From Epilithonimonas hominis (GTDB lineage Bacteria; Bacteroidota; Bacteroidia; Flavobacteriales; Weeksellaceae), in assembly GCF_003730015.1 (NCBI RefSeq), contig NZ_RJTU01000029.1:1-59500 (forward strand): 59,500 bases of DNA, in the 5' to 3' direction. Positions 50,273 to 59,500 of this stretch are shown piece after piece. Position 1 is the first letter of the stretch; each line of letters starts with the position of its first letter. Made by a program: the position numbers and the translations under genes. The notes under the pieces were generated by a model, which searched no databases, was not told the DNA's origin, and saw only the letters and a program-made list of their open reading frames with translations.

Positions 50273-50352
50273 GCCCAGGTGGCGGAATTGGTAGACGCGC
50301 TGGTCTCAAACACCAGTTCTTAGGAGTACCGGTTCGATCCCGGTCCTGGGTA
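50273..50352 (+). tRNA. tRNA-Leu (anticodon CAA)
   Basis: The acceptor stem pairs GCCCAGG with CCTGGGT, with discriminator A at 50352. The anticodon stem CTGGT/ACCAG holds loop CTCAAAC, anticodon CAA, decoding UUG. A class II variable arm (TTCTTAGGAGTACC region) and the T arm CCGG/TTCGATC/CCGG are present. CCA is not encoded. It marks the left edge of the genomic island. Confidence 0.95.
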
Positions 50353-50358
50353 CTTAAT

Positions 50359-50550: not shown

Positions 50551-50706
50551 CTAGTATTTTTTATCTTTTGGTTTATTATAATTTTTTGATACTAAATATA
50601 GTAATTCCAAGATAATTTTAGCTTCCTTCTCATTTACCCGAACTCCATTCTTGGCCAAAATAGTAATTGCTTGTTCTACTGAAATATTCTTATCGATGAA
50701 ATTCAT
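50551..50706 (-). CDS. 51-residue protein overlapping the recombinase gene
   Basis: Starts inside the last 17 bases of the recombinase gene and encodes MNFIDKNISVEQAITILAKN, then GVRVNEKEAKIILELLYLV and a Lys-rich end. The amphipathic two-helix pattern resembles small proteins found beside integrases in Bacteroidota mobile elements. The overlap suggests translational coupling. A role as recombination directionality or accessory factor is only a guess. Confidence 0.65.
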   Translation of the reverse strand: MNFIDKNISVEQAITILAKNGVRVNEKEAKIILELLYLVSKNYNKPKDKKY

Positions 50707-52183
50707 TTTTCTTATTGGTTTTTCGATGAGTTTTCTTTGATAATATTTTTGAGAATGCTTGATTTAAATCTAAAGATAGATCTCCTGTTTTATAATCAAT
50801 ATCAATCGGAGGAATAAGATTCACAAGATGTTTTTTATCCGAGGCATCAAATTCAGAAATCTTTTGAAAAATTTCAACTATAGACCTATCTCCTATATTA
50901 TCCTTTCTGTCAATAGCTTTTAATTTAGCAAGAATATCACACTCTTCTTTCCTAAGATTTTTTGTATTAACAAGATTCTCTTTTTTTAACTCATTATAAT
51001 CATCAATCTTTAATATTCCAGCTATAAATAATTTTCTGCCGTGTGAAAGAGTTAACTTTTCCTCTTTCATCTTTCTCTCTATTAATTTTTGAGAGTACAA
51101 ATAACGTGCTTTCTGAGTCTTTATGTTTTGATCTGCTAAAACATTCCTAAGTAACTCAACTGCACTATTTAACAATATCAATTCTTGAAGTTTTTTTTGA
51201 TAACAATTATTAAGTAAAATTGCATTAATCCTTATCCTACATCTATTATGACAGTGATAATATGGGTACTTTTTTGATCTTCCTGTTGAAAAACTTCCTC
51301 CAAGTTTCCGATTACATACAGGACAAATTAAAAAACCTCTTAGAAAAAACATTGCTTTCAAATCATCTCTCTTAGCTGTCGTTTTTCTTTTTGTATTGAC
51401 AACTGATTGAACCTGATGGAATAACGATTCAGAGATTAGAGGTTCGTGTAAACCTTTTATCATTTGTTCTTTGTTAGAGTTTAATTTGATTGATACAAAG
51501 CCACAATAAACCGGATTACGCAAAACTCTGAAAAAATTTGACCGTGAACATATCAATCCCTTCTCATTAGCTATTTTATTAATCTCGGATATTTTCCGAT
51601 TATTTTGGGCAACTTGATTGAAAACCCATTTTATAATTCCAGCCTCAGGTTCTTTAGGAACAATTGCCTTTTTACCATCCATTAATGTCACATTGAGAAA
51701 GCCCATAGGCGCTTTACTAGGATATCTGCCCATCAACTTTGCGCGTCGCAAGCCATTTGATGTATTTTGAGCTCTCCGTGTATTTTCTGCTTCCGGTACA
51801 GCCAAATATACAGCCAGCATTACAGTGCTTTCTGGCACTGAAAAATCGATTGGCTGATCAATAGCCATTGCAGTTGTCTTATATTTTCTGAGTTTTCCAA
51901 TCATTTCGTAAGCATATTCAATATTACGGCTGAATCGATCCCATTTTATAAATAATATGTTCTTATCCACTTCTGCTGATTTCTTTTTAACTTCGGAGAA
52001 TAATTCCTTCCAAGCAGGTCGATTGAAATTCTTTGCAGAGTAATCCTCCCTATAAATTCCTTTAACCTCAATATCGTTGTATTTACAATACTTTAGTAAT
52101 CTATCCTCCTGTTCCGGCAAGGAATAACCTTTTCTTTTTTGTTCGTCCGTACTTACACGGACATATAAATAAGCTGTTTTCAT
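50690..52183 (-). CDS. Large serine recombinase (site-specific integrase)
   Basis: A 497-residue resolvase/invertase-family integrase, started at the ATG at 52183 (an upstream ATG at 52213 adds 10 residues). The catalytic domain has YVRVSTDEQ with Ser11, and the Arg-rich helix in KWDRFSRN. A recombinase domain follows (about 160-260; NTSNGLRRAKLMGRYPSKAP), then a zinc ribbon CPVCNRKLGG plus CHNRC (about 290-325) and a long coiled coil. This domain order is that of phage phiC31-like integrases that insert and excise islands. It is next to tRNA-Leu and diverges from the cargo operon. Confidence 0.93.
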   Translation of the reverse strand: MKTAYLYVRVSTDEQKRKGYSLPEQEDRLLKYCKYNDIEVKGIYREDYSAKNFNRPAWKELFSEVKKKSAEVDKNILFIKWDRFSRNIEYAYEMIGKLRKYKTTAMAIDQPIDFSVPESTVMLAVYLAVPEAENTRRAQNTSNGLRRAKLMGRYPSKAPMGFLNVTLMDGKKAIVPKEPEAGIIKWVFNQVAQNNRKISEINKIANEKGLICSRSNFFRVLRNPVYCGFVSIKLNSNKEQMIKGLHEPLISESLFHQVQSVVNTKRKTTAKRDDLKAMFFLRGFLICPVCNRKLGGSFSTGRSKKYPYYHCHNRCRIRINAILLNNCYQKKLQELILLNSAVELLRNVLADQNIKTQKARYLYSQKLIERKMKEEKLTLSHGRKLFIAGILKIDDYNELKKENLVNTKNLRKEECDILAKLKAIDRKDNIGDRSIVEIFQKISEFDASDKKHLVNLIPPIDIDYKTGDLSLDLNQAFSKILSKKTHRKTNKKNEFHR

Positions 52184-52296
52184 TATTTTGATTTCAAAAT
52201 AACCAAAGTTCAATAAATATCCTTTGTAGATATAAAAAAATTAATTCAACATACAAGACACGTAAAATCTAAAAATCCAACACAGTGCTAAAATTT

Positions 52297-52369
52297 TAAC
52301 GATAAAAAAATCGCTAAAATTTTTGACGATAAAAAAAATGTCATATCTTTGACGAGAAATAAATCGTCA
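52297..52369 (+). promoter_or_regulatory. Promoter with three tandem palindromic operators
   Basis: A promoter with -33 TTTG (52322-52325), an 18-base spacer and -7 TATCTTTG (52344-52351) lies 19 bases before the ATPase start. Three imperfect palindromes of the form TGACGAT-N6-ATCGTCA occur at 52297-52316, 52324-52343 and 52350-52369, about 26-27 bp apart. One is upstream of -33, one fills the spacer and one covers the likely transcription start. This is the layout of a cooperatively bound repressor site. Confidence 0.75.
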
Positions 52370-52370
52370 T

Positions 52371-55109
52371 ATGAATCAAGATCTATTATTAAGAAACAAC
52401 ACAGGAGTAAAATCCAAAGTAAATCTAATTGAAGGGTTTGTTGTAAGAACCAATCAATTTGAATTACTAAAGGAAAACCTGCTTAAAACCTCAGAACCCA
52501 GCAATGTTATTATTATTGGTCAAAGAGGCGCTGGTAAAACCACGCTTATACATAGACTTAACTATGAAATTATCGATGATGCCGTGCTTCGCAAGAAATA
52601 TATTCCAATAATGTTCAGTGAAGAACAGTATAGTTTATCTGATTTAACAAATTTATGGGAAACTATTGCAACAACAATAGAAGATAGTTTTTATGAAGAA
52701 TCTTTATCTGATACAATTGCTAATATCATCGATAAACAAAAAAATTATGAGCAAAAATCATATGATTTTTTAAGAGAATTCCTAATCGAAAAAAATAAAA
52801 CAGCAATACTTTTCATTGAGAACTTTAATTTCTTCTTGAAGAAAATATCAGATAATGAAAAGAAAAAGCTATTCAGAATTTTAGAATCCGATTCGAATTT
52901 TAAAGTCATTGGCACATCAACAACTTTTAATGATGGAAATATAGATTTTCAAGAAGATGAATATAATTTTTTAAAAATTATTGAGTTAGACAGTTTGAAT
53001 AAGGCTGATTGTGAAAAACTACTTATAAAAATCGGTCAACAATACGGGGAAGAGCAACAAATTCGCAACATCATTGAGCAACATCCAGGAAGAGTTGAAG
53101 CTTTGCGACGGTTAACCGGAGGTGTCCCTAGAACAATGTCGTATCTATTCCAAATTTTCATGGATAATGAAAATGGAAGAGCTATAAAAGATCTTTATTT
53201 ATTAATTGATACACTTACGTTACTATATAAGTCAGAGCTTGATCAGTTATCAACACAACAACAAAAAGTCGTTGATGCAATAGCTAGAAAATGGGATGCA
53301 ATTTCGGTTAAAGAAATTGCAAAAAAAACTAGATTAGAAAGTAAAAACATCTCCTCAATTTTATCTTATCTAGAAAAAAATCAGTTTATCGAAAAAATAC
53401 CAACAAGTACAAAAAATAATCTTTACAGAATTAAGGAGAGATTTATGAATATTTGGTATCTCATGAGATTTGGCCGTAAAAATGATAAAGATAACGTCGT
53501 CTGGCTCGTTAGATTTTTTGATGCTTGGTGTGATGAATCAGAATTAACCAAACGAGTTAAAAAACATATCAGCAACCTTAAAGGCGGAAATTATGATATC
53601 AATGCAGCTATTGATATGGGCAATACTTTTTTGTCTTGTGAAAATTTACCAGAAACTCTAAAAGAAGAATTAATTAAAACCACCAATGCAATCCTACCTG
53701 ACCGTCTATTAAAAAATACGAAAATATCTGAATCAGGTTTATTAGATAAAATTAAAAACTTGATCAAAGAAAACAAATTTGAAGAGGCTGAAAGTCTATT
53801 GGAGGAAATCAAAATTAAAGACGCAAACTATTATACTGTAGCTACTTCACTTTACATATTTAGTAAGCAGATCAAAAAAGCAATGGAATCTGCAAAAGAA
53901 GCATGGGCATTAGATAATCAAAATGCTCAGATGGCAATTACTATCGGTACTTTTTATGAGTTTCAAGCTGAAAATTTACGTGAAGCTGCAAAATATTATA
54001 AATTAAGCTTAGAGTTGCCAAATTCGCACGGATATGCAGCATATCGCTTGGGAGATATTGCTTTAGAATTAGAGGATGACTTTGATGAAGCAATTAAATT
54101 TCATAAAAAAGCAATTTCAATGAAGTTTAAGTTGTCGTTAAATTCATTGGGTGATATTTATGCAGAAAAAGGAGATTACGAAAAGGCAGTTCAATATTAT
54201 AATGAAGCCATCGCCGCCAAAACCGGCGCTCCTTATACCCGTCTAGCACGTTTATATACAATGACGGGAAAACCGAAAGATGCAGAAAAAGTGCTATTAC
54301 AAGCAATAAAAACAAATGAGGAACACAGTAAAATAAATCTTGGTAGATTTTACTATCTAAAGTCAAGACCAAATTATAAGAAAGCGGAGATAGAACTTAG
54401 AAGTGCAATCAACGATGGAGATGATGATGGTTATGTAGAGCTAGCTAGAATGTTCTTAAAGATGGGTCAAACTGAAAAAGCCATCAAAGCTTTAGAAGAA
54501 GGAGTGGAAAGAGGAAATGCTGACGCTGCACATCAGTTAGGCCATGTGCTTGCGACAGAAAAGCAATATGATAGATCTGATTTTATGTTTGAAAAAGCAA
54601 ACGAAATGGGCGAGCTTGACTCATTAGGATGCTGGGCTGAAACGATTTTCGATGAGTTTAGAAACGATAAGAAACAATATGCGTTAGAATTGATACAAAA
54701 AGCACTGGATACAGATTTAGAGCCATCGCCAAAACTAACATTACTGCATGCTAAAATATTGCTATGGAACGGAAAAGTAACTGAATCGTTAGAAGTCATA
54801 AAGGAACCTATTCAGATACTGATTGATAATATGGACACAAGAAGAGGCGAAATATTATACAACAAGGTATTTGCTGATTTTGTAACATATTTTCTGTTGT
54901 TAATTGTTAAGAAAGAAAATACCATTTTATTAGATTTATTTAAAGAGATAGAAGATCTTGAAATGATTTTCAAACCAATCTATTTTGTTCTGATGGAAAA
55001 TCTACAAGATGATTTCCCGAACGAATATTTACGAGCAGGAAAAGAACTAAAAGAAACAATATATGAATTAAAGGAAGAATTAAAAATTTTAAAAGAAAAT
55101 TTAGAGTAG
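52371..55109 (+). CDS. STAND/AAA-like ATPase with winged helix and TPR repeats
   Basis: A 912-residue protein in three parts. Residues about 25-290 are a P-loop ATPase: Walker A GQRGAGKTT (50-58), a Walker B-like strand ILFIEN (Asp replaced by Glu-Asn), TSTTF sensor strand and GGVPRTMSYLF, the ORC/STAND Gly-Pro motif. Residues about 305-375 are a winged helix (SVKEIAKKTRLESKNISSIL, then NLYRIKERFMNIWYLMRF). Residues about 440-830 are TPR-type repeats (YAAYRLGDIALEL, SLNSLGDIYAEKGDYEKAVQYY and others). Such proteins sense a ligand with the repeats and switch by ATP. No effector domain is fused, so it may control the downstream genes. It is the first cargo gene and is behind the triple operator. 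Confidence 0.88.
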   Translation: MNQDLLLRNNTGVKSKVNLIEGFVVRTNQFELLKENLLKTSEPSNVIIIGQRGAGKTTLIHRLNYEIIDDAVLRKKYIPIMFSEEQYSLSDLTNLWETIATTIEDSFYEESLSDTIANIIDKQKNYEQKSYDFLREFLIEKNKTAILFIENFNFFLKKISDNEKKKLFRILESDSNFKVIGTSTTFNDGNIDFQEDEYNFLKIIELDSLNKADCEKLLIKIGQQYGEEQQIRNIIEQHPGRVEALRRLTGGVPRTMSYLFQIFMDNENGRAIKDLYLLIDTLTLLYKSELDQLSTQQQKVVDAIARKWDAISVKEIAKKTRLESKNISSILSYLEKNQFIEKIPTSTKNNLYRIKERFMNIWYLMRFGRKNDKDNVVWLVRFFDAWCDESELTKRVKKHISNLKGGNYDINAAIDMGNTFLSCENLPETLKEELIKTTNAILPDRLLKNTKISESGLLDKIKNLIKENKFEEAESLLEEIKIKDANYYTVATSLYIFSKQIKKAMESAKEAWALDNQNAQMAITIGTFYEFQAENLREAAKYYKLSLELPNSHGYAAYRLGDIALELEDDFDEAIKFHKKAISMKFKLSLNSLGDIYAEKGDYEKAVQYYNEAIAAKTGAPYTRLARLYTMTGKPKDAEKVLLQAIKTNEEHSKINLGRFYYLKSRPNYKKAEIELRSAINDGDDDGYVELARMFLKMGQTEKAIKALEEGVERGNADAAHQLGHVLATEKQYDRSDFMFEKANEMGELDSLGCWAETIFDEFRNDKKQYALELIQKALDTDLEPSPKLTLLHAKILLWNGKVTESLEVIKEPIQILIDNMDTRRGEILYNKVFADFVTYFLLLIVKKENTILLDLFKEIEDLEMIFKPIYFVLMENLQDDFPNEYLRAGKELKETIYELKEELKILKENLE

Positions 55110-55133
55110 AATGATATAGAATATTAGAAAATA

Positions 55134-55169
55134 AAAAGTCCAAGAAATTCTCACCCTCCTTGAACTTTT
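55134..55169 (+). terminator. Terminator-like hairpin between the ATPase and MBL genes
   Basis: AAAAGTCCAAG / CTTGAACTTTT with one mismatch and a 14-base loop, weak as a terminator. The rest of the 253-bp gap (55110-55362) has no gene; TAGATTTG at 55207-55214 is a possible -7 box without a clear -33, so the three distal genes may have their own transcript. Confidence 0.45.
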
Positions 55170-55362
55170 GTTAATCTCTCCGAGTTAAGATACCTTAGAG
55201 AAATTTTAGATTTGTTATGGTACAACGCACAAATATAATAAAAATTGTGTTTAAACAACATTTATAATAATTTCTGTAAGAGGTGGACTCTGCCACTACT
55301 AATATTTCTAACAGAACTTTTTGGAATTAATTATTAATGTAAACAAGTTTATAACAATTTTT

Positions 55363-56523
55363 ATGCAGAACGCAACATTAAAATACTATCCCGTAGGAAA
55401 CGGTGATAATTCATTAATCACTCTTGAAGACAAAACAACTATTATCGTAGATTGTAATATCAGAAACTGTGTAGACGACATCTTTGATGTAAAGAAAGAT
55501 CTTTTAAAAAATCTTCAAAAAGACAATGGAATTCCATTTGTTGATGTTTTTATATTAACTCATGGAGACCAGGATCATTGCAGAGGATTTAAAACCCATT
55601 TTTACCAAGGCGATCCAAAAGATTATTCAGATGAAGATAAAAAGAATAATTTAATTCGTGTTGATGCTATGTGGTTTTCACCAATGATTGCAGAAGAACA
55701 TTCAAATGATGATGAAGATGCTTATCAAAAAGAGGCAGAAAGAAGATTAGAACTTCATAGAAAAGACTCTCCACAAAAAGATAAGCCTGGAAACAGAATC
55801 AGAATCATCGGTTATGATGGAAATAAAGACTATCAGGACTTAAATCACCTAAGATCTACTCCGGGAACAGTCGTTTCTCGCTTCAATGATAAAGACCAGA
55901 AGTTATTTTCTGTTTTTATTCATGCACCCTTTAAAGAACATCTGGAATCAGAAGGGGACGACAAAAAGAATTCCACAAGCATCGTGTTTCAAGCAAGATT
56001 TAAAACCAATGAATATCAACAAGACTTTGCAACATTAGCAATGTTCGGAGGAGACTCCGATCATACATCATGGGATATCATATTGGACAAAACCAAGAAA
56101 CATAACAACAGTAAGGCCTTGGAATGGGATTTATTCCTTTCACCACACCATTGCTCTTGGTCATTTTTTAATGATCGTCCTCAAAACGAAAATCCAACTC
56201 CTAAAAAAACTTCTTTAGAAGCATTGGATTACAGAAGAAATAATGCAAAAGTTATCGCATCCAGCAAGAAAATATTGGATGATGACGATAACCCTCCTCA
56301 CTATGAAGCAAAAAGTGAATTTGTAAAAAAAGTAGGCTCTTCTAATTTTTTAAACACTTCTACGTACGAACTTATTAATAAAGTTCCTCAGCCTATCGTT
56401 TTTGAAGTCACATCTTTAGGAGTAGTTAAACCTAAACAATCAGAAGGCACAGCAAAAGCTGTAGGAACTGCAGCATTAGGAATTGTAAATACTACATCTA
56501 AATATGGCAGTCATTATTTATAG
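55363..56523 (+). CDS. ComEC-type metallo-beta-lactamase-fold hydrolase
   Basis: A 386-residue protein from the ATG at 55363 (a TTG start at 55321 would add 14 residues). It opens KYYPVGNGDNSLITLEDKTT and TIIVDCN, as in the MBL domain of ComEC. The metal motif is THGDQDHCRGF with H67, D69, D71 and H72, the HxDxDH variant of that group; later ligands are D231 in FGGDSD and H262-H263 in SPHHCSW. Family members are phosphodiesterases or nucleases. There is an inserted charged segment at about 80-145. The C-terminal 35 residues (KAVGTAALGIVNTTSKYGSH) form an Ala/Gly/Thr-rich tail that overlaps the start of the next gene by 20 bases. It may be the effector or a processing enzyme of the conjugation system. 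Confidence 0.88.
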   Translation: MQNATLKYYPVGNGDNSLITLEDKTTIIVDCNIRNCVDDIFDVKKDLLKNLQKDNGIPFVDVFILTHGDQDHCRGFKTHFYQGDPKDYSDEDKKNNLIRVDAMWFSPMIAEEHSNDDEDAYQKEAERRLELHRKDSPQKDKPGNRIRIIGYDGNKDYQDLNHLRSTPGTVVSRFNDKDQKLFSVFIHAPFKEHLESEGDDKKNSTSIVFQARFKTNEYQQDFATLAMFGGDSDHTSWDIILDKTKKHNNSKALEWDLFLSPHHCSWSFFNDRPQNENPTPKKTSLEALDYRRNNAKVIASSKKILDDDDNPPHYEAKSEFVKKVGSSNFLNTSTYELINKVPQPIVFEVTSLGVVKPKQSEGTAKAVGTAALGIVNTTSKYGSHYL

Positions 56524-58768
56524 CAGTACTCTGCAAAAATATTCCGGAGAAATAGAGAATCCTTATTTAAAGGATTCTCTAGCTTCGCTGGAGCATTTGG
56601 CGGGAAGAAATCTTGATATTTTAGATTGGGGAAATCAAAGAATTGCTATTCCTTTTGAAATTAGTGTTGACCTTCCTAGTTTAGGAACTTATGAAAACAT
56701 TGATATCAGACAGAATGAACCAATACTACTTGTTTTTGATATTTTGGAATATCCAGAAAAGAGTCCTAATATTTACACAGATAGGCTGGATTTTCCAAAG
56801 AATAGTTTAGCCCATTTATATGTTGCAAAAAATAATCGTCCACCTTCAATATGCTATGTTCGAGAAAACACTGATGAATGGTATGCAAATAAAAGAATTG
56901 AAGATGTCATAATTCGTATTAGTAACTGGCTCAGAGCAGCAGCAGTTGGAGAATTGACTGAAGATGGAGACCAATTTGAACCGATGCGACTGGAAGGATA
57001 CTATAGCACAATATTATATGACTATAATTTTGTAGTAGATTCTATTATTGAAAATAATCCCTTCCCAATTACGAACCAGTTTTCAATTGTTCAGTTTGAA
57101 CTAATAAAACATGAGGAAAAACGAGTGTACAAATTCACTAAAAAAATAACTCCTTCAAATTTCACTTCAATTGCAAAAGAAATTGAAGAACATCAAGAAA
57201 AAAATATAGATGACATTACAAAACGTGAATTACGTTTAGCATTCGTTATCTGGAATGGAGAAAAAGATATTAACGAAAAGTACGAAATAAATCTACCAAG
57301 AAACTGGGAGGATTTTAAACGGTTTTGTGATAATTACAAAATTTATCATGAAGATTTAGAAAAAATAATTGCTGATTACAAAATGGTTCCATTTCCAGTG
57401 ATTGTAGGAATAAGACGTCCTAAACCTTTGATTGGTTATTCAAGTGTTTTAGAATTGATGAATTTCGAATTTAATATAAATTCAGATCAAACAGCAGATG
57501 GAAAAATTATCAGTAATTTCCCAATCAATATACTTTCACATAATCAATCTTTTTCGACAACACAAGCTGAAAAGATTTCAAACTACACAAACACATTAAA
57601 AAGAGGTGTAGTCTTTGGCTGTGGTGCACTTGGATCCAAAGTGGTAATGCATCTTGCTAGAAATGGAGTTACAAACCTAACTTTATTAGACCCTGACGAT
57701 TTTTCATCTCACAATCTTGTTAGACATGTGCTTTTTTCCGAGAGTATCGGTGCAAATAAAGCCGAAGCTTTAAAACAAAAAATAATAGATTTATATCCAA
57801 GTAAATCAATTGATACATCATCTGGAACATCATTTAAAGACGGTCGTATATATGAAGAAGAAACATTTAAATTATACGATTGGGTGTTCGATTTTACTGC
57901 TTCAGAAGCATTTTTTAACAAGCTTGCAGTATTAAATAGTCTTCCAAACTGTAAAATTGCAAGTGCATCAATCACAGATCATGGAAATGTAGGTTTATTA
58001 TTCAAAGAAGGGATAAATAGAAATCCTAGAATTGACGATTTGCAGGTATATCTTTATTCTAGCGCTCTTACTACACCGAAAAATTCGGAGTGGCTTACTC
58101 GGGAACAATATGTTAATTCCAATAATTTACTAGTGAGAGTTGGCCTAGGTTGTAATTCCGAGACCACAGTTTTAGCAGATGAAAAAGTTGCATCTCATGG
58201 TGCCTATTTTACTGCAGTTTTGAAAAAGGAAATCAATTCATACAGTCAAGAAGGAAAGATTTATATAAATAGAATTACTGACGAAAATGATTACTCAATC
58301 GAAACAGAAGTCATTACTGTCAAACCCTTGGATGTTTATTCTGCTGTGAATAGTGATTGGGAGATTAGATTTAAAAATGAAATTCTTGAGCACGTTAAAA
58401 AACAGGCAGATCAAGCAGGAAAAAGGGAAACAGGAGGTGTTTTTTTGGGACAATGTAATCATAAAACAAAAACTATCTATGTAACAGATTTACTTGAAGC
58501 ACCGTCCGACAGCAAAGGAAATTCTTCAATTTTTCTTAGAGGATTTAAAGATTTGTCAAATGAAATTGATTTAATCAACAAAAAAACAGGTGGTCAGATC
58601 GGATATATTGGAGAATGGCATTCACACCCAGAAGGTCCTGATTTTCTTAGCTCCACTGATATGCAGCGTGTTGAAGAGCATAAGATGGAATTAGAATCAT
58701 TAAAAACACCATTACCAGTATTTCTTTCTATAATTACTCCTAATGGCTTTTACCCATATATTTTTTAA
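56504..58768 (+). CDS. E2-like / E1 / JAB fusion (ubiquitin-like conjugation and deconjugation)
   Basis: A 754-residue protein with three enzyme parts in one chain. Residues about 1-160 are E2-like: FPKNSLAHLYVAKNN, then PPSICYV with candidate catalytic Cys117, DEW and RISNWLRAAAVGEL. Residues about 165-345 form a linker domain. Residues about 365-600 are an E1/ThiF adenylation domain: GCGALGS (372-378), LLDPDDFSSHNLVRH with Asp396/Asp398, Asn404 and Arg407, NKAEAL, and GLGCNSETT with candidate catalytic Cys550. Residues about 625-754 are a JAB/MPN peptidase with a complete JAMM set: E642, H706, H708, S716, D719. Domains are related to CBASS Cap2 plus Cap3 and Bil/Bub proteins. No separate ubiquitin-like gene is present. 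Confidence 0.9.
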   Translation: MAVIIYSSTLQKYSGEIENPYLKDSLASLEHLAGRNLDILDWGNQRIAIPFEISVDLPSLGTYENIDIRQNEPILLVFDILEYPEKSPNIYTDRLDFPKNSLAHLYVAKNNRPPSICYVRENTDEWYANKRIEDVIIRISNWLRAAAVGELTEDGDQFEPMRLEGYYSTILYDYNFVVDSIIENNPFPITNQFSIVQFELIKHEEKRVYKFTKKITPSNFTSIAKEIEEHQEKNIDDITKRELRLAFVIWNGEKDINEKYEINLPRNWEDFKRFCDNYKIYHEDLEKIIADYKMVPFPVIVGIRRPKPLIGYSSVLELMNFEFNINSDQTADGKIISNFPINILSHNQSFSTTQAEKISNYTNTLKRGVVFGCGALGSKVVMHLARNGVTNLTLLDPDDFSSHNLVRHVLFSESIGANKAEALKQKIIDLYPSKSIDTSSGTSFKDGRIYEEETFKLYDWVFDFTASEAFFNKLAVLNSLPNCKIASASITDHGNVGLLFKEGINRNPRIDDLQVYLYSSALTTPKNSEWLTREQYVNSNNLLVRVGLGCNSETTVLADEKVASHGAYFTAVLKKEINSYSQEGKIYINRITDENDYSIETEVITVKPLDVYSAVNSDWEIRFKNEILEHVKKQADQAGKRETGGVFLGQCNHKTKTIYVTDLLEAPSDSKGNSSIFLRGFKDLSNEIDLINKKTGGQIGYIGEWHSHPEGPDFLSSTDMQRVEEHKMELESLKTPLPVFLSIITPNGFYPYIF

Positions 58769-58769
58769 T

Positions 58770-59390
58770 ATGCAGAATGAAGTTAATTTAAAAAGTAAGA
58801 ACACAACTTTGTTGTGGGTGTTTTTGGCAGCAAATGTTATAATTATTCTGACCATTAGTTTTCCAAATTTTGTTGAACAATTTGATATAATTCTTTGGAC
58901 TAAAACAATTGGTGCCAGTATCGCTCCTGTGATATTATTTCTTCTTAATGGGTTGTTATCTAGCCATCAAAAAGCAATAATAATTTTTTGGAGATTAAAA
59001 GATCCTTTACCTGGCTCAAGAGCATTTTCTGAACTAATCAAAAAGGATTCAAGAATTGATATTAAGAAACTAAAAAGTAAATTCGGTATCTTTCCCCGGA
59101 AAGCTTCAGAGCAGAATAAACTTTGGTATCTTATATACAGACAAAATGCCTCCAACATACTTGTAACAGAAAGCCATAGAGCATTTTTGTTAGCGAGAGA
59201 CCTTACTTCACTAAGCTTTTTATTAATGTTAGTAATGGGAGTTTTAGCTTTAGCATATATATCACCTATAATAAAATACTATTATTTTTTATTTTTAATT
59301 ATCCAATATTTTGCAAATTTGGTTAATGCCCGTAATCGCGGACAAAGATTTGTAACAAATGTTCTAGCAGTTGAATCTACCAATTCTTAG
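58770..59390 (+). CDS. Four-helix membrane protein of the conjugation cluster
   Basis: A 206-residue protein, started at the ATG at 58770, one base past the upstream stop (a further ATG at 58743 lies inside the E1-JAB gene). Helices lie near residues 12-30, 41-63, 144-165 and 168-186. Between them is a soluble segment of about 75 residues (WRLKDPLPGSRAFSEL and on), and the end is NARNRGQRFVTNVLAVE. It could be an inner membrane effector or anchor, as in other anti-phage operons that pair a sensor with a pore-former. No recognisable family motif; function unknown. Confidence 0.8.
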   Translation: MQNEVNLKSKNTTLLWVFLAANVIIILTISFPNFVEQFDIILWTKTIGASIAPVILFLLNGLLSSHQKAIIIFWRLKDPLPGSRAFSELIKKDSRIDIKKLKSKFGIFPRKASEQNKLWYLIYRQNASNILVTESHRAFLLARDLTSLSFLLMLVMGVLALAYISPIIKYYYFLFLIIQYFANLVNARNRGQRFVTNVLAVESTNS

Positions 59391-59410
59391 TTGTTATTAT
59401 ATAAAAAGAT

Positions 59411-59500
59411 TTAATATCCCGTTGGTAATAATTGTGAAATTCTTTGTAGATCATCCACCAAATGTTTCGATATTTCTTCGGTTATGGGTACAAAAAATCC
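59411..59500 (-). CDS. 3' end of an unidentified gene (partial)
   Basis: The minus strand is open from the window edge to a TAA at 59411-59413, coding GFFVPITEEISKHLVDDLQ and RISQLLPTGY. Only the last 29 residues are visible, convergent with the membrane protein gene. Too little to identify. Confidence 0.6.
   Translation of the reverse strand, partial: GFFVPITEEISKHLVDDLQRISQLLPTGY

Follow-up and report, generated by a model that had tools for sequence, protein, structure and literature searches.

Operons that couple a triple E2-E1-JAB protein (ubiquitin-conjugating E2, ubiquitin-activating E1 and isopeptidase JAB domains in one chain) with a specialised metallo-beta-lactamase (MBL) domain were described as operon row 6a by Iyer, Burroughs and Aravind in 2006 (PMC1779556), where they are recorded as 'usually two genes'. 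Although E1, E2 and JAB domains were recognised in type 6a operons at that time, no modifier was evident. In type II cyclic-oligonucleotide-based antiphage signalling systems (CBASS), Cap2 conjugates the terminal glycine or alanine of the cGAS/DncV-like nucleotidyltransferase (CD-NTase), a residue whose conservation is restricted to systems with full Cap2 and Cap3 (PMC10097602); a further precedent for conjugation of the CD-NTase C-terminus by Cap2 is given in PMC11153139. Among MBL proteins, the pro-nuclease HamM is cut by trypsin-like proteases (PMC12799240). The present work concerns four genes in a stretch of 59,500 nucleotides from Epilithonimonas hominis (contig NZ_RJTU01000029.1), referred to as the window. 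They encode a P-loop ATPase with tetratricopeptide repeats (ATPase-TPR, gene 1), an MBL protein (gene 2), an E2-E1-JAB fusion (gene 3) and a membrane protein (gene 4), and it is probably the MBL protein that supplies the modifier missing from such operons.

The operon is a real 6A-MBL operon and a new variant of it, with a membrane protein in an effector-like slot and an ATPase-TPR. Gene 2 reaches 398.7 bits against NCBIfam NF058524 (6A-MBL MBL protein, cut-off 220), gene 3 reaches 602.8 bits against NF058523 (6A-MBL cap2_3, cut-off 320), and the adjacency expected of 6A-MBL is present, the fusion gene overlapping the MBL gene by 20 nt. By these family matches, genes 2 and 3 are the known core pair, named 'anti-phage 6A-MBL system' by NCBIfam, and the presumed anti-phage role is taken from that family name. 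The first-pass annotation had proposed an undescribed conjugation system, which is ruled out by the two NCBIfam scores and by the earlier description of the pair in row 6a (Iyer et al. 2006, PMC1779556). No literature on 6A-MBL or on MBL conjugation was found in a search that left most subscription papers and bioRxiv outside its reach.

The MBL Protein as a Candidate Modifier

Homologues were compared in several sets. Forty genome loci carry the MBL, and 36 of them show the fusion beside it; of the four others, two (L043, L051) are cut short by a contig end and two (L054, L056) carry MBL fragments. Alignment A3 contains 36 locus MBLs and that of the window (37 in all), with the degraded L041, L051 at its contig end and the fragments of L054 and L056 omitted. 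Alignment A4 contains 33 fusions and that of the window (34 in all), omitting L028 (interrupted), L034 (shorter open reading frame, ORF), L041 (degraded) and the four loci without a fusion match (L043, L051, L054, L056). A set of 55 MBLs was formed from A3, 15 plasmid-borne copies and three other genome copies (L060, L061, L063); it spans several bacterial phyla and two archaea, and some of its members are closely related. Among the eight Bacteroidota MBL loci, L057 is the window, L060, L061 and L063 are the scored copies, and L058, L059, L062 and L064 are unscored.

The MBL domain itself is well defined. Although the ORF is listed from TTG 55321, homologues favour a start at ATG 55363, and the protein was modelled with a mean predicted local distance difference test score (pLDDT) of 87.6. 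The closest Foldseek match of the model is the MBL (nuclease) domain of ComEC (9ic4, E 3e-12). Residues H67, D69, D71, H72, D231, H262 and H263 are invariant in all 37 MBLs of A3, every one of which matches NF058524 at 1e-10.

The key feature is the C-terminal tail, predicted to be disordered, which lies beyond the span of the NCBIfam model (residues 8-353). One tail residue, G382, is the same in each of the 37 aligned MBLs, while most neighbouring tail columns vary strongly. Across the 55 MBLs, the last glycine always falls within six residues of the end, and it is the terminal residue itself in 27, while a terminal glycine occurs in 0/18 other ComEC-type MBLs taken as controls (7 + 11, the 11 from clusters c9 and c12 sharing loci with 6A genes and including one 91-aa fragment). 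As the tails are rich in glycine, chance was assessed by shuffling each of them. At less than 90% identity, 23 of 46 tails end in glycine against 7.6 expected (P 2e-7), and at less than 70% identity the figures are 14 of 31 against 4.9 (P 1e-4). At L031 and L047 the genes do not overlap, yet the MBLs end in glycine, and an origin of the tail glycine as a by-product of gene overlap was therefore rejected.

Separate modifiers were also sought. No match to the ThiS/MoaD family (PF02597) was detected in the host genome, while 12 of 14 control genomes have one. No ubiquitin-like gene is present among the four proteins or named in 15 annotated plasmid neighbourhoods, and no dedicated ubiquitin-like protein of the Bil or Bub type was found in the four proteins, PF02597 being a family that need not cover Bil or Bub modifiers. 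A CD-NTase is likewise absent from the four proteins in Pfam, PADLOC and NCBIfam scans, which covered those proteins rather than the rest of the window. The earlier observation that the set lacks both a CD-NTase and a ubiquitin-like gene is thereby borne out. Because of the invariant and often terminal tail glycine, the CD-NTase precedent in CBASS and a host without detectable ThiS/MoaD, the best explanation as a whole is that the fusion conjugates the MBL protein, which would take the role of ubiquitin-like donor, a reading from sequence that appears rather more probable than its negation.

The enzyme that would carry out such a reaction is encoded by gene 3. Besides the two candidate cysteines listed in Table 1, D396 and the JAMM residues E642, H706, H708, S716 and D719 are invariant in the 34 fusions of A4, and R407 is nearly so; these are residues that the first-pass annotation had named. 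AlphaFold2 run on the 34 aligned fusions gave a mean pLDDT of 86.7 and a predicted template modelling score (pTM) of 0.70. The sole segment of at least three residues with pLDDT below 50 is 542-551, which includes C550. The top Foldseek match is CBASS Cap2 bound to a CD-NTase (7to3; E 5.7e-24, 641 columns, TM-score 0.52 by query length). In the model, the fusion has a Cap2-type E2-wing-E1 architecture followed by JAB. Its N-terminus had been proposed to be an E2, which agrees with the Pfam Prok-E2_A match and with the predicted likeness to Cap2, a protein that has an E2 domain.

The gene set, the predicted folds, the invariant catalytic residues, the disordered tail with its invariant glycine and the swappable third gene come from computation. 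From them a scheme may be inferred that covers the chemistry of conjugation, the trimming, the target, the sensing of phage, the activation of an effector and the activity of the nuclease. The JAB domain would trim the four residues (SHYL) that follow G382, and the tail would be expected to enter the E1 site in the way seen for the CD-NTase tail in 7TSQ. The E1 domain would then adenylate the exposed glycine and hand it via C550 to the E2 cysteine C117, linking the MBL nuclease to an amine, probably of a lysine, in a phage, host or partner protein; the JAB domain could also reverse the bond. Once conjugated, the MBL nuclease would be positioned or activated, and/or the membrane protein encoded downstream, which may act as an interchangeable membrane-acting effector, would be licensed. 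The ATPase-TPR would serve as a clade-specific sensor or regulator.

Several points weigh against this scheme. At less than 50% identity the excess of terminal glycine is modest (5/11 against 1.6 expected, P 0.014). A glycine within six residues of the end is weak evidence by itself, because composition alone leads one to expect it in 33.9 of 46 of these tails. The last residue is other than glycine in 28 of the 55 MBLs, and therefore trimming must be assumed. Moreover, the MBL is without a beta-grasp fold, and a modifier outside PF02597 is possible because the host genome has other ThiF-type (E1-like) proteins. Finally, two of 36 genome loci (L027, L029) and four of 15 plasmid loci are without a third gene of the usual kinds after the fusion, and therefore an effector function of the slot cannot apply to every locus.

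Some of these points would also suit an MBL that is an effector nuclease only, with the fusion conjugating a ubiquitin-like protein or peptide that is encoded elsewhere and regulates the MBL or the membrane protein. Other bacterial E1-E2-JAB enzymes use separate ubiquitin-like proteins (Iyer et al., PMC1779556), the MBL fold is nuclease-like, and the host has other ThiF-type proteins. This arrangement is unlikely, however, given the negative searches for ThiS/MoaD in the host and for a ubiquitin-like gene among the four genes and the 15 plasmid neighbourhoods, and it leaves an invariant G382 in a disordered tail unexplained.

The tail might alternatively be a processing switch, in which JAB or another protease cuts the MBL at the glycine and activates the nuclease, while E1 and E2 modify something else. 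Protease-activated MBL nucleases occur in Hachiman and other systems (PMC12799240), and the MBL of the window has a distant sequence likeness to Avs1a (E 1e-7, NCBIfam) and to the LmuA and RTasMBL models of PADLOC. Such a switch is nevertheless quite unlikely: the cleavage sites of HamM are isoleucines within insertions that obstruct its active site (PMC12799240) and not a C-terminal glycine, and in 27 of the 55 homologues nothing follows the glycine that could be cut.

The Variable Gene after the Fusion

The membrane protein lies in a swappable, effector-like slot. Gene 4 has no match in Pfam, PADLOC or NCBIfam, and a hydropathy scan gives three hydrophobic segments, one of them long enough for two. 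Its family extends to Burkholderia glumae (36% identity, E 1e-40). On the same strand directly after the fusion, the 36 genome loci carry the gene 4 family in 10, c2 (a second multi-pass membrane family) in 10, a patatin-like lipase in 10 (identified at E 8e-23 for one protein) and smaller membrane proteins in 3, so that a membrane protein or patatin fills the slot in 33 of 36; at L044, c2 is present on the opposite strand. In the 15 plasmid loci, the slot holds a membrane protein or patatin in 10, a second MBL-like protein (by eye) in 1 and none of these kinds in 4, the c2 label of six plasmid proteins resting on their placement in alignment A6.

On a tree of 49 fusions, no fewer than 14 changes are required to explain the nine slot labels (8 is the smallest number possible), though the labels cluster much more strongly than chance would give (shuffled mean 29.4). 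By analogy with CBASS, where CapV is an effector (PMC10097602), a position occupied variously by membrane proteins or lipases would seem to be an effector slot. These observations point to a likely immune-effector role for membrane-protein families without a database name.

Two possible relationships of gene 4 were set aside. It is not assigned to PDC-M48A, there being no PADLOC match up to E 1; a distinct slot family, c73, matches PADLOC M48A at 1.4e-4. A common origin of gene 4 and c2 is not claimed either, the two being collinear but only weakly similar (hhalign probability 10.7, E 0.003). Additionally, a second MBL gene stands after the membrane protein or patatin downstream of the fusion at L021, L026, L039 and L050. 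Those of L039 and L050 match PADLOC PDC-M48B strongly, and those of L021 and L026 fall into one cluster with that of L039.

The ATPase-TPR Gene and the Genomic Setting

The coordinates of the features are collected in Table 1.

Table 1. Features of the 6A-MBL operon and its island, in positions of the window.
Feature	Coordinates	Strand	Basis or remark
Gene 1, P-loop ATPase + winged-helix-like stretch + TPR repeats, 912 aa	52371..55109	+	TPR_8 E 2e-18
Gene 2, 6A-MBL MBL protein, 386 aa, ComEC-like nuclease fold, candidate conjugated modifier	55363..56523	+	NF058524, model, Foldseek
Predicted disordered C-terminal tail of MBL, residues 360-386 (27)	56440..56520	+	pLDDT <50, about 26
Codon of G382, candidate conjugated residue	56506..56508	+	Invariant 37/37; SHYL follows
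Gene 3, E2-E1-JAB fusion (cap2_3), 754 aa	56504..58768	+	NF058523; Prok-E2_A, ThiF, Prok-JAB above cut-off
Codon of C117, candidate E2 cysteine	56852..56854	+	Invariant in 34/34 fusions
Codon of C550, candidate E1 cysteine, flexible loop	58151..58153	+	Invariant in 34/34 fusions
JAB isopeptidase domain, about residues 614-754	58343..58765	+	Prok-JAB E 2.5e-8; PADLOC JAB E 1.6e-26 (614-741)
Gene 4, multi-pass membrane protein, effector-like slot	58743..59390	+	215 aa from first start; ATG 58770 likelier
Serine recombinase of island	50690..52213	-	Pfam Resolvase E 4e-25, Recombinase E 2e-11
tRNA-Leu (CAA), island boundary	50273..50353	+	ARAGORN

As the first-pass annotation had described, the ORF list of the window places all four genes on the plus strand beside a recombinase, with genes 2 to 4 overlapping or one base apart. 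The 20-nt overlap of genes 2 and 3 is followed either by one base, when gene 4 starts at ATG 58770, or by a 26-nt overlap, depending on the start. Gene 1 stands outside this tight run, at a gap of about 250 bp from gene 2.

Gene 1 has a Walker A motif, GQRGAGKTT, recognised by reading the sequence. Its matches to AAA_16 (28.1 bits, curated cut-off 32.6), nSTAND3 (21.6, cut-off 27.2) and MarR (21.7, cut-off 24.6) remain below threshold, as does that to NB-ARC, and it matches the PADLOC mad8 model at E 5e-7. Besides the window, 7 of the 40 loci have a homologue of gene 1 before the MBL gene, about 250-320 bp away in intact copies. The predicted recurrence of all four genes together is seen in these seven loci of other genomes, the copy of L041 being degraded. 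On the fusion tree, the seven placed rows with gene 1 form one clade (100/99) and come from four families.

The ATPase part of gene 1 matches 35 of 395 Bacteroidota genomes (E <=1e-15), and 6A-MBL is present in 8 of the 395. Three genomes have both: that of the window, G282 and G307. In the last two, the gene 1 relative and 6A-MBL are far apart or on separate contigs. Genes 2-4 occur in none of eight neighbourhoods of gene 1 relatives; in seven of these, a protein of 392-420 residues with a P-loop (by eye) stands just before the ATPase-TPR. At L110-L116 (Bacteroidota), gene 1 relatives are preceded by a second ATPase-like protein of about 400 residues and have the appearance of a recurrent two-ATPase module.

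Within 6A-MBL, the ATPase-TPR is an addition confined to one clade. It is an accessory, probably taken up a single time out of a more widespread ATPase module, and a probable sensor or regulator. The first-pass annotation had instead made a STAND-like (signal transduction ATPase with numerous domains) ATPase-TPR the sensor that controls the conjugation enzyme, with four genes in one obligate system; this is decidedly improbable, since, despite its place beside the core in the window and in seven loci and its weak likeness to the MADS ATPase model, gene 1 has no homologue in 33 of 40 MBL loci (some cut by contig ends), is confined on the tree to one clade, lies at a distance from gene 2 and has relatives in many more Bacteroidota genomes than 6A-MBL.

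Relatives of gene 1 occur in other contexts. On the Agrobacterium plasmid pAtCFBP7129a (L067 2253-10162), a distant one stands beside two annotated cyclase-domain proteins and a ThiF-family protein whose N-terminal extension is maybe E2-like (by eye), a possible cyclase-plus-Cap2 system. On a Sphingobium baderi plasmid (L066 1043-5413), a relative adjoins an annotated cyclase-domain protein and a Pycsar effector on the opposite strand.

Similarity of the window to three congeners ends at 50353, the last base of the tRNA-Leu, and therefore the operon stretch is an island at a tRNA. In Chryseobacterium sp. c4a (L017), the same four genes lie beside the same tRNA, and 254 bp replaces the recombinase region. 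Attachment-site repeats sought around the island gave nothing convincing. The contig ends 110 bp past gene 4 (59391-59500), where the downstream view stops. At the start of gene 1, a promoter match of the Bacteroidota type is found at 52322-52351, and an inverted repeat, TGACGA...TCGTCA, was spotted by eye within 52322-52375; the promoter motif has 3 matches in the window against 4.4 expected by chance, and this count gives no evidence.

Beyond the genome loci, the MBL protein matches 252 plasmid records (Klebsiella 126, Escherichia 25, Acinetobacter 18), of which the 15 neighbourhoods considered above were examined. Escherichia coli pSE11-2 carries a bare two-gene 6A-MBL version. Divergent regulators, either WYL or helix-turn-helix with ImmA/IrrE, are annotated just upstream of plasmid 6A-MBL MBL genes (L068, L079, L081, L082, L088), and cluster c4 (ImmA/IrrE-like by eye), which is similar to these plasmid-operon regulators, recurs in genome loci. 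No relatives of gene 3 were found among viral contigs, nor of the MBL among phage records.

Comparison with Known Defence Systems

The candidate modifier, namely the MBL protein with its tail, was missed in the earlier annotation, and its proposed conjugation is the main new idea of this analysis. The tail evidence narrows to G382: without this single residue conjugation should fail, and the question is therefore directly testable. If MBL conjugation is true, prokaryotic ubiquitin-type conjugation goes beyond ubiquitin folds or cyclases. In its broadest form, the proposal is that the part of 'ubiquitin' in 6A-MBL is played by a metal-dependent nuclease. The MBL would be the second class of large enzymes without a beta-grasp fold, after CD-NTases, to be attached covalently to targets in prokaryotes by a C-terminal glycine; it would act as a reversible nuclease tag licensing a swappable membrane or lipase effector, and Cap2-type conjugation would be a general adaptor. 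This broad form has about an even chance of being right.

The operon agrees with described 6A-MBL in its E2-E1-JAB fusion adjoining a specialised MBL, both proteins scoring above the NCBIfam cut-offs. It differs in the membrane protein that follows and the ATPase-TPR that precedes, neither of which matches an NCBIfam, Pfam or PADLOC 6A model, and in a conserved tail glycine that falls outside the NCBIfam MBL model.

Pairs of MBL nuclease and protease (HamM, Avs1a, LmuA and accessories of defence-associated reverse transcriptases, DRT; PMC12799240) likewise belong to defence operons in which a ComEC-like MBL precedes a regulatory enzyme, and they share the distant sequence similarity noted above. 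In contrast to them, no trypsin-like protease was found in the four proteins, and the partner of the MBL is an E2-E1-JAB enzyme. Unlike the 6A MBLs, the 18 other MBLs read as controls are without a terminal glycine.

BubCD structures are among the Foldseek matches of the fusion. Bil and Bub possess E1, E2 and JAB-type activities, with a ubiquitin-like protein and separate subunits, whereas no ubiquitin-like protein was found here.

Type II CBASS comprises a CD-NTase, Cap2, Cap3 and an effector. The present operon differs from it in that an MBL nuclease-like protein takes the place of the CD-NTase among the four genes and the equivalents of Cap2 and Cap3 are fused in one chain. The two are alike in a Cap2-like E2-wing-E1 with a JAB isopeptidase, in a partner enzyme whose tail is flexible and has a conserved glycine (the CD-NTase in CBASS and, as a candidate, the MBL here), and in a position for membrane proteins or patatins, effector-like in the present operon; CapV of CBASS is a patatin.

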